Assembly (NCBI GenBank): GCA_943349825.1
Contig: CALQZQ010000002.1
Location: 124,001 to 188,000 of the forward strand
DNA from: Candidatus Peribacteria bacterium
GTDB lineage: Bacteria; Patescibacteriota; Gracilibacteria; UBA1369; 2-02-FULL-48-14
DNA length: 64,000 nucleotides
Direction of reading: 5' to 3'
How positions within the stretch are numbered: the stretch's first letter is position 1; each line of letters begins with the position of its first letter. The notes below the pieces were generated by a model that ran no database searches, was not told where the DNA came from, and saw only the letters and a program-made list of their open reading frames with translations. The position numbers and the translations under genes are program-made. Below are positions 45,541-61,209 of this stretch, piece by piece.

Positions 45541-46161
45541 ATGAAACTCTCCAAGAAAAAAATCGCGTTTTTCATAGTCACCACGGCGGTCATCCTCGCG
45601 TTGAGCCCCTTCCTGGTCCAATCCCTCGCCAAAATCTACACCGTCGAAGACGTGCCTGCCGAAACCGTAGCCATCGTCTTTGGAGCAGGCCTCGGGAAAG
45701 CGGGTGGCCCCAGTGATGTGCTTTACGATCGGCTCACCGTAGCCTCCCAGCTCTACAAAGCCGGAAAAGTGCAAAAAATCCTCGTGTCCGGGGACAATTC
45801 TTACGAAAACTACAACGAACCCGAAGTCATGACCACCACCCTCATCGACGCCTTTGCCATTCCCGCCGCCGACATCGGCCAAGATTTTGCTGGTCGCCGC
45901 ACCTACGACACCTGCATCCGCGCCAAAGAAGTTTTTGGCATCGAACAGGCCATTCTCGTCACCCAAGATTTTCACTTGCCGCGTGCCCTCTACACCTGTA
46001 ATTCGCTGGGTATCGAAAGCGTGGGAGTCTCCGCCTCGCTGCAGCCCTATATTTTGGAAGATTATTACGCTTTTCGAGAGTATCCTGCCACCCTCGCTAT
46101 GTTCATGGATCTTTACCTGTGGTCGCCCGATTATATTGAAGGGGAAAAGGAAGAATGGTAG
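45541..46161 (+). CDS. SanA/YdcF (DUF218)-like membrane protein
   Basis: VAIVFGAGLGKAGGPSDVLYDRLTVASQLYKAGKVQKILVSGDN...RTYDTCIRAKEVFG...LVTQDFHLPRALY. Confidence 0.9.
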   Translation: MKLSKKKIAFFIVTTAVILALSPFLVQSLAKIYTVEDVPAETVAIVFGAGLGKAGGPSDVLYDRLTVASQLYKAGKVQKILVSGDNSYENYNEPEVMTTTLIDAFAIPAADIGQDFAGRRTYDTCIRAKEVFGIEQAILVTQDFHLPRALYTCNSLGIESVGVSASLQPYILEDYYAFREYPATLAMFMDLYLWSPDYIEGEKEEW

Positions 46162-46164
46162 TTG

Positions 46165-46470
46165 ACGTGAATCTTGAAACTCCCTTTTGCTTGTTAAGGG
46201 ACCTACTCACTTTTTGAAGCGGGGAGCGAAGGTACTCGGATGCATGATCCTCCTACCTTCTTCCTTAAGGTTTATGCTTCAGAAAGTGAGTAGGTCCCAA
46301 ACCGAAAGAGAGTTTGAAATTCCATAACAGATAGAAGTTCGTGTACCTTTTGGGAAGCATTAACCCTGAAGGAAGCGGAGAGAAAGTTCATGAACTTTCT
46401 CGGAGCGTTCCATGCTGAGTAAAAGGCACACGAACTTCTCTTCTTGGGTTTGGAGTTTCAAGATTCACGT
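46165..46470 (-). mobile_element. MITE-like two-arm palindromic element, copy 1 (inverted relative to copy 2)
   Basis: Perfect 19-bp TIRs ACGTGAATCTTGAAACTCC/GGAGTTTCAAGATTCACGT; arms 46198-46298 and 46333-46439. Confidence 0.85.
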
Positions 46471-46550
46471 TAGTTTCCCTTGCAATCCTGTTAAAATCCT
46501 CTAAAATACGCAAGCTAGGCCCAAGCGGCCAACCTTAAAGTCTACCGAAT

Positions 46551-54598: not shown

Positions 54599-54691
54599 AA
54601 TCCTTCATTGAAAAGTCTTCCAACTCCCTCTACACTAGCTCTGCCTTTAAGGCATTTGTTCTTTGTAAATGTGGGCCCGTAGCTCAGTTGG

Positions 54692-54925
54692 TTAGAGCAG
54701 GAGGCTCAAGTCGAGCGAAGCTACGTTGAGATTAGGATTATGAGTTTCTGCGTGACAATTGTTACAGAGCAGAATGCATTTTTTGAGTTCTTTTAAGATG
54801 AATTCCTCTTTTCTATTGGAAAGAGCGCGTGCATCTAAATTGAAATCTTTCTCTTTAGGGTTGAGATGGTGAAAGGCAAGGGCGGATAGATTTTTTCTAT
54901 AACCACACTTGCTGCATTTACTCAT
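54692..54925 (-). CDS. HNH endonuclease, antisense inside the group I intron
   Basis: CSKCGY...LAFHHLNPKEKDF...ELKKCILLCNNCHAETHN. Confidence 0.85.
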   Translation of the reverse strand: MSKCSKCGYRKNLSALAFHHLNPKEKDFNLDARALSNRKEEFILKELKKCILLCNNCHAETHNPNLNVASLDLSLLL

Positions 54926-55153
54926 AACCGAATTTTATCTCAATATGCTTCCCTTGCAAGGGCTGTTGGTAGAGGAATCTACCAATGAACATTTGCCAAA
55001 TTCGGGGAACCCTTCCTGCATCATGCAGTGGCGATCCCGAGCCAAGACCTCATTGAGGTAAGGTGTAGAGACTAGACGGCAAACACCCAGAACGGGTGAA
55101 GGTATAGTCCAGCTCACGAACTCGAAAGAGGTCACGAAAGTGATAGCGAGACG
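54707..55153 (+). other. Group I intron in anticodon loop (after U33)
   Basis: P/Q/R/S-like AAATTCGGGGAACCC, GATCCCGAGCCAAG, GTGTAGAGACTAGACGGC, AAGGTATAGTCC; P7 GACTA/TAGTC, P8 CACCC/GGGTG; terminal G. Confidence 0.93.
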
Positions 55154-55209
55154 CATAACTTCTTGGTCGTTGGTTCAAGTCCAACCGGGCCCACCATCCA
55201 AAAGTACGA

Positions 55210-59894: not shown

Positions 59895-60857
59895 ATGCAA
59901 AGCGATCTGATTAGAAAAGCCACGGAAGTCCTCCAAGGGGGAGGTCTCGTCGCTTTTCCCACCGAAACGGTTTATGGCCTCGGGGCCAACGCCTTTGAAA
60001 GTGCTGCTGTCGAAAAAATCTTCAGCATGAAGGAGCGTCCCAGTTCCAATCCGCTCATCGTACACATCGCTGAAATCAGCCAGTTAAAAGATTTGGTTGA
60101 AAAAGTAGAACCCATGGAACAGCTGCTGATTGCTGCTTTTTGGCCTGGCCCGCTCACGCTCGTGTTCCCAAAGTCCGACAAAGTACCCAAAATCGTCAGT
60201 GGCGGCTTAAAAACCGTGGCGGTGCGCATGCCGGCTCACCCGATGGCCTTGGAACTGATCAAGAGCTGTGGCTTTCCCATAGCCGCTCCTTCGGCCAATC
60301 CATCCGGCAAACCCAGCGCCACCCACCACGAGCACGTAAAAGCCTATTTTGGAGATCGCATCTTCCGCATGGAAGGAGGCGAAACCCAGCACGGCTTGGA
60401 ATCGACCGTGGTTCAGGTGAAAAACAAAGTGCCGCACATCTATCGTCTTGGCTCGGTGACTCCGGAAGACATCGAACGTGTAACAGGTGTAAAGCCCGTG
60501 ATAGACACGCGTTCACCGCATTCGCCGGGCACCCATTTCAAGCACTATTCCCCAGAAACGCAGCTCTGCGTCTTGACTAAAGAAGTCTGGAAAACCCGCA
60601 TTTACCAAGCCCTGGAGCACGGCAAGCGCGTGGGCATTTTGGCCACCACAGAAAGCGCCAGAAGTTTGAGAGGTTTCGAAGTCACCGTCTTCGATCTTGG
60701 CTCCGAATCCAACCTCATGGAAGTAGGCTCCCGCCTCTACAGTGGCTTGATTGAGCTCGATCAACAGAAGTTGAATATAATTTTTGTTCAAGAATTTCCA
60801 AAAACAGGTTTGGGACTCGCCATCATGGACAGGCTCCAACGCGCTGCCAGCCGCTAA
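59895..60857 (+). CDS. L-threonylcarbamoyladenylate synthase (Sua5 type)
   Basis: GGLVAFPTETVYGLGANAF; PSSNPLIVHI; APSANPSGKPSAT; C-terminal Sua5 domain. Confidence 0.96.
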   Translation: MQSDLIRKATEVLQGGGLVAFPTETVYGLGANAFESAAVEKIFSMKERPSSNPLIVHIAEISQLKDLVEKVEPMEQLLIAAFWPGPLTLVFPKSDKVPKIVSGGLKTVAVRMPAHPMALELIKSCGFPIAAPSANPSGKPSATHHEHVKAYFGDRIFRMEGGETQHGLESTVVQVKNKVPHIYRLGSVTPEDIERVTGVKPVIDTRSPHSPGTHFKHYSPETQLCVLTKEVWKTRIYQALEHGKRVGILATTESARSLRGFEVTVFDLGSESNLMEVGSRLYSGLIELDQQKLNIIFVQEFPKTGLGLAIMDRLQRAASR

Positions 60858-61161
60858 CGTGAATCTTGAAACTCCAAAGCCAAGAAGAGATGTTTGTGCG
60901 CCTTCTGCTGAGCATGGAGCGCTCTGAGAAAGTTCATGAACTTTCTCTCCGCTTCCTTTCATGCTTGATGCTTCCCAAAAGGCGCACAAACATCTACCTG
61001 TTATGGAATTTCAAACTCTCTTTCGGTTTGGGACATACTCACTTTCTGAAGCACAAACCTTAAGGAAGAAGGTGCGAGGATCATGCATCCGAGTACCTTC
61101 GCTCCCGCTTCAGAAAGTGAGTATGTCCCTTAGAGCGGGAAGAGAGTTTCAAGATTCACCT
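60857..61161 (+). mobile_element. MITE-like two-arm palindromic element, copy 2
   Basis: TIRs GTGAATCTTGAAACTC (60859-60874) / GAGTTTCAAGATTCAC (61144-61159); arms 60888-60995 and 61030-61129. Confidence 0.85.
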
Positions 61162-61209
61162 CGCTAAGCTTGCAAACAGATCGGTTTCATTTTAGAATCA
61201 TAGTCCACA

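Follow-up and report, generated by a model that had tools for sequence, protein, structure and literature searches.

The 306-bp sequence at 46165-46470 is a copy of a mobile element that belongs to a previously unmatched family of the structured MITE, or inverted-hairpin, kind. The reading that we prefer, and to which we give about an even chance as a whole, is that of a non-autonomous MITE-type transposon with a conserved core and with hairpin arms that are kept matched partly by hairpin-templated copying. All positions refer to the window, that is, the whole stretch of 64,000 nucleotides that was analysed (C2:124001-188000), which comes from a 1.25-Mb genome that is 98.8% complete.

Results

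Copy 1 of the element (46165-46470, plus strand) was delimited by direct reading and by a genome-wide match to about 12 copies. It is bounded by terminal inverted repeats (TIRs): ACGTGAATCTTGAAACTCC at 46165-46183 (left TIR, plus strand) is the exact reverse complement of 46452-46470 (right TIR, minus strand, placed by direct reading and by the copies). Letter-level re-reading bore out the perfect 19-bp inverted repeat proposed in the first-pass annotation, and the arms C and B and the 22-bp palindrome described there were correct in letters and position. The sequence GTGAATCTTGAAAC in the TIR is common to the copies, and the element ends carry ACGTGAATCTTGAAAC. Between the TIRs lie hairpin C with its flanking bases (46195-46301), which has its GGAA...CTCC sense on the minus strand, and its inverted homologue, hairpin B (46333-46439), which has that sense on the plus strand. 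Copy 2 (60857-61161, minus strand) is inverted relative to copy 1, with hairpin B at 60886-60997 (minus strand) and hairpin C at 61027-61132 (GGAA...CTCC sense on the plus strand). As had been claimed, the reverse complement of copy 1 aligns with copy 2 from end to end, at 90% identity over query positions 3-306.

The whole element is predicted to fold into a closing terminal stem and two long hairpins. Its RNA fold reached -146.7 kcal/mol, compared to -82.2 +/- 4.7 for shuffled sequences (z -13.8), and its DNA fold gave a z of -12.2 against shuffles. The fold energy, the roughly 12 copies and covariation beyond that of shuffles confirm that the element is real and not a product of chance. Elsewhere in the window, at 54671-55195, a group I intron (Rfam RF00028 at 54941-55134, 61.7 bits) interrupts a tRNA gene, and about 230 bp of extra sequence separate the intron core from the 5' exon; ARAGORN did not report this split tRNA.

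A DNA search confined to this genome identified the roughly 12 copies on several contigs. Five are full-length (c1-c5), and c2-c5 have the same plan as copy 1 (306 bp, 19-bp TIR). Copies c6-c10 and c12 are truncated at one or both ends, with edges set by eye, and c11 keeps both ends and the C hairpin only. Across copies, TIR length is 16-19 bp. Seven copies have both ends recognisable and were taken as testable for target site duplications (TSDs); five of the seven are flanked by TSDs of 5-7 bp (TAGTT, CGCTAA, AAAATA, TTTTAAG and CTAAA), and no TSD was found in the flanks of c3 and c5. Random re-pairing of left and right flanks matched the TSD total in 0.045% of cases (permutation p = 0.00045). 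The TSDs of copy 1 (TAGTT) lie at 46159-46163 and 46471-46475, the left one holding the TAG stop of a DUF218 gene (45541-46161), and those of copy 2 (CGCTAA) lie at 60852-60857 and 61162-61167, the left one holding the TAA stop of a Sua5 gene (59895-60857). In all, the TSDs of c1, c2 and c4 overlap a stop codon, and a stop codon lies within 7 nt of 10 of the 12 copies, compared to about 15% of permissive window positions. This adjacency may reflect a target preference, or the survival of harmless insertions.

The combination of TIRs with TSDs of 5-7 bp suggests insertion by a cut-and-paste transposase. The MITE-like character assigned in the first-pass annotation is upheld by the TIRs, the TSDs, the dispersed full-length and truncated copies and the absence of an internal gene, and we consider MITE-type mobility very likely. 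All 13 exact GTGAATCTTGAAAC sites in the genome fall inside the roughly 12 copies, and no autonomous element with these ends was therefore seen in the genome. At up to one mismatch, neither this genome nor 90 genomes of the order yielded a TIR-sharing autonomous element. Type II MITEs may be without a TIR-sharing autonomous element. The copies encode no gene and are too short for a transposase, and searches for the Y1 and DDE_Tnp_1 families found no transposase for the element. Exact TIR matches in GTDB genome contigs numbered 75, about the chance number for a 16-mer, and a Peribacteria match inspected among them had no partner end. The core and TIR patterns had no match in viral contigs, the element had none in plasmids and phages, and a search of Rfam 15 gave no family above the gathering threshold. 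A genome of the same genus (G001) contains no copy; synteny with it is broken at copy 1, and no clean empty site is found there.

When nine C hairpins were used to build a covariance model, the model matched the element's own B hairpins, on the opposite strand (E 3e-5 to 3e-4). This establishes B and C as inverted homologues, and the GGAA...CTCC sense is thus represented by one hairpin on each strand. Along the C-minus/B-plus strand, the plan common to the hairpins is, in order, an outer stem, a one-sided A-rich loop of about 8-13 nt, GGAA, an inner stem, GA, a GGATCATGATCC-like apex (C type), GA, the inner stem, CTCC and the outer stem. The first-pass annotation had recommended a covariance-model search of related genomes; ours detected single-hairpin relatives in four other genomes of the order, G004 (E 3e-11), G005 (8e-11), G037 and G044, and no match beyond these among 292 genomes sampled from the class. 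The core is conserved across five genomes and two families, and GGAA, CATG and CTCC are invariant in 13 core sequences from four other genomes and this one. The outer stems have nothing in common between genomes, yet they are paired over roughly 18-30 bp. The single-hairpin version is present in six copies in G044 and five in G037, and the outermost stems differ between these copies with pairing retained. An alignment that combined all cores proved misaligned in its apical part and was left out of the models; phylum-wide core matches in G113 and G364 had no hairpin context and were rejected. The inverted homology of the hairpins, the TSDs, the stop-codon adjacency and the relatives in other genomes all go beyond the first-pass annotation.

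Some individual loci deserve mention. Two further members of the family carry B-type cores, at G005:C1:84623-84675 and G003:C26:5140-5188, in which the apical palindrome is changed on both sides (AAAGTTCATGAACTTT and AAAGATCATGTATCTTT, respectively). At G037:C7:2845-2899, a further, unrelated perfect palindrome, GGACAATTGGC...GCCAATTGTCC, sits in the inner stem of a related hairpin, an arrangement that looks like the insertion of one hairpin into another. At G044:C6:42155-42249, a related hairpin lies in frame within an ORF of about 245 codons that resembles a methyltransferase gene; the conserved-looking RLRLLDVGCGNG is encoded by the hairpin's right arm, which the left arm matches in inverted form. 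The idea drawn from this copy, that arms are inverted copies of host flanks, was dropped for the present genome because the arms of its copies share a common ancestor.

In the nine C modules, 95.1% of 345 cells are paired and 14 base pairs show two-sided changes (shuffled mean 6.4); in the ten B modules, the corresponding values are 98.3% and 16 base pairs (shuffled mean 5.2), giving 30 such pairs in total. The covariation score was reached by none of 500 shuffles, and when the register was slid, pairing fell to 36-55%, below that of the true register. The earlier claim that the stem differences between copies 1 and 2 are compensatory was slightly overstated, since in the outer stems four pairs are changed on both sides and three on one side; in arm B, a pair that is G-C in copy 2 is an A/C mismatch in copy 1. 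The accompanying proposal, that the fold is maintained by selection or by palindrome-templated correction, survives because compensation is in excess in the added copies (9 C and 10 B modules) and the element matched none of the described families.

Mean pairwise divergence was 0.30 for the arms and 0.087 for the cores; for the three linkers, which are short (about 12-37 nt), difficult to align and perhaps constrained, it was 0.22-0.33. The arms are thus 3.4 times as divergent as the core and evolve near the linker rate; if the linkers are indeed constrained, the true time scale is longer and the tempo argument weaker. For each copy pair, the fraction of arm base pairs changed on both sides is 0.20-0.24, against 0.08-0.11 for one-sided differences, a 2.1-2.5 fold excess, with 1-4% G-U and 3-4% mismatch in the arms, the pairwise counts being non-independent and some mismatches representing decay after insertion. 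A stepwise mutation-selection chain, tuned to the observed G-U and mismatch levels, gave at linker divergence an arm divergence of about 0.04-0.05 and a two-sided to one-sided ratio of 0.16-0.28, and it neared a ratio of 2 only with neutral sites close to saturation. In the closest copies, doubles and singles numbered 15 vs 13 and 38 vs 16. Transversional changes made up 47 of 92 classified double changes in C and 77 of 189 in B (124 of 281 together), and no G-U step bridges such changes. This tempo is consistent with a process in which the two arms change at once, and template switching between hairpin arms is one such process.

The core, which evolves more slowly than linkers and arms, is asymmetric and retains a GA/GA internal loop. 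In G044, a T-G pair situated between compensated pairs is kept in five of six copies, which counts against templated correction because efficient correction would have erased it. Slow, asymmetric and recurring in several genera, with its GA/GA loop and, in G044, the T-G pair retained, the core cannot be explained by correction, and we think it quite probable that it is functional. One strand is more stable in all 10 modules of G044 and G037; the copies in this genome show no clear preference for one strand. Strand-specific wobble was examined as a sign of RNA function, and G-U counts by strand over all modules are 58 vs 57.

Discussion

In the mechanism that we propose, a cut-and-paste (DDE-type) transposase, now absent, would have mobilised the element in trans by way of the TIRs. 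The core would be kept by selection, through a putative partner that recognises the fold, and the arms would have no sequence constraint of their own. Hairpin-templated DNA synthesis, that is, template switching between the arms, would restore their match in single steps, acting on top of selection for the fold; as a result, the arms would drift at about the linker rate and stay complementary. Our results suggest that both causes act, selection on the core and templated matching of the arms, since the arm changes are too fast and the intermediates too few for stepwise compensation alone. That at least part of the arm matching is made in single templated steps we regard as an evenly balanced proposition. 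More tentatively, the arms may be rewritten in single templated events, possibly at each transposition, and the covariation would then be a mutational record and not itself evidence of selection.

Alternatively, ordinary selection for a folded form, of RNA or of single-stranded DNA, could by itself keep the same element paired through stepwise compensation, an explanation that we consider rather unlikely. It is in keeping with the conserved asymmetric core, its GA/GA internal loop and invariant GGAA, CATG and CTCC, with the conserved T-G pair in G044, and with the more stable strand in every G044 and G037 module. It is at odds with arms that evolve as fast as linkers through few G-U or mismatch intermediates, with the stepwise model, in which arm divergence comes out 5-6 times lower and two-sided differences are much scarcer, and with the lack of G-U strand bias over all modules. 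The opposite extreme, in which palindrome-templated correction acts alone on an unselected fold and the hairpins are passengers of a TIR-bounded element, seems improbable to us: a core 3.4 times slower than the arms and common to several genera, and the persistence of internal mismatches and an asymmetric loop, speak against it, although it accounts for the arm rate near that of linkers, for the many transversional double changes and for arms that are perfect even in the truncated c8, c9 and c12.

Slightly less credible still is a host-functional structured RNA, such as a 3'-end mRNA stabiliser or processing signal, that was spread by old transposition. The proximity of 10 of 12 copies to a stop codon (at most 7 nt) would agree with such a role, as would the inverted arrangement, which makes the element orientation-independent. 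However, no U-tract terminator was found at the element, the same-genus genome G001 is without it, and the stop adjacency, measured in part from truncated-copy edges set by eye, may also stem from survival of harmless insertions or from a TA-containing target.

Like prokaryotic MITEs such as Coxiella QMITE2, Correia and ERIC (PMC10969869), the element is shorter than 500 bp, has TIRs within 4-30 bp and flanking direct repeats, lacks a transposase, is intergenic, has a predicted strong stem-loop transcript and occurs in truncated copies. It differs from them in its two inverted homologous hairpins, in a core common to several genera, in arms that are hypervariable yet matched, and in that no TIR-sharing autonomous element was found. 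Nor is it AT-rich, its hairpin modules in this genome having 35-51% GC (most 44-49%); AT-richness is typical of MITEs but does not define them (PMC10969869).

REPINs, which are inverted REP doublets moved by RAYTs (PMC3116915), likewise consist of two inverted hairpin units in a mobile doublet and combine conserved parts with a variable region. Bertels and Rainey reported that compensatory changes on both sides of REPIN hairpins are common (PMC3116915), and covariation in a mobile hairpin is therefore not new. In contrast to REPINs, the element has TIRs and TSDs, longer units and a different arrangement of core and variable parts. The foot of the core is GGAA/CTCC in 13 of 13 aligned cores, with no GTAG (or CGTC) tag; the Y1 gene (PF01797) is absent from this genome, G004 and G044, and the single PF01797 genes in G001 and G005 are not flanked by the element's core. 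Given the missing tag, the missing Y1 gene and the presence of TIRs and TSDs, the element is not a REP or REPIN.

Mitochondrial DNA repetitive or double hairpin elements are also mobile, structured, intergenic hairpins, but their stems are conserved and their loops vary (PMC2800124). The present element reverses this pattern, in that its stems vary around a conserved core, with divergence of 0.30 in the arms against 0.087 in the core. Rickettsia palindromic elements (named in PMC3733652) are comparable by description, being palindromic, and one G044 relative is located in frame within a gene; the present genome's copies, in contrast, are intergenic. Template switching has been proposed for RNA stems in rRNA and microRNA genes, where the evidence that it maintains stems was called circumstantial (PMC8794818). 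The mechanism described there, like the one that we propose, would produce two-sided stem changes in one step, including multiple adjacent ones, but our stems belong to a multi-copy bacterial mobile element.

Two-sided stem changes are normally taken as proof of selection on a fold, yet template switching has been argued to produce them in one step (PMC8794818). The element, with its many copies and three classes of rate (TIR and core, linkers, arms), offers a direct test of templated stem change. Its core motif, GGAA...CATG...CTCC, provides a handle for finding relatives and the mobilising enzyme in little-known small genomes, and the element itself is a natural test of how paired stems evolve, with arms that change almost freely and yet match.
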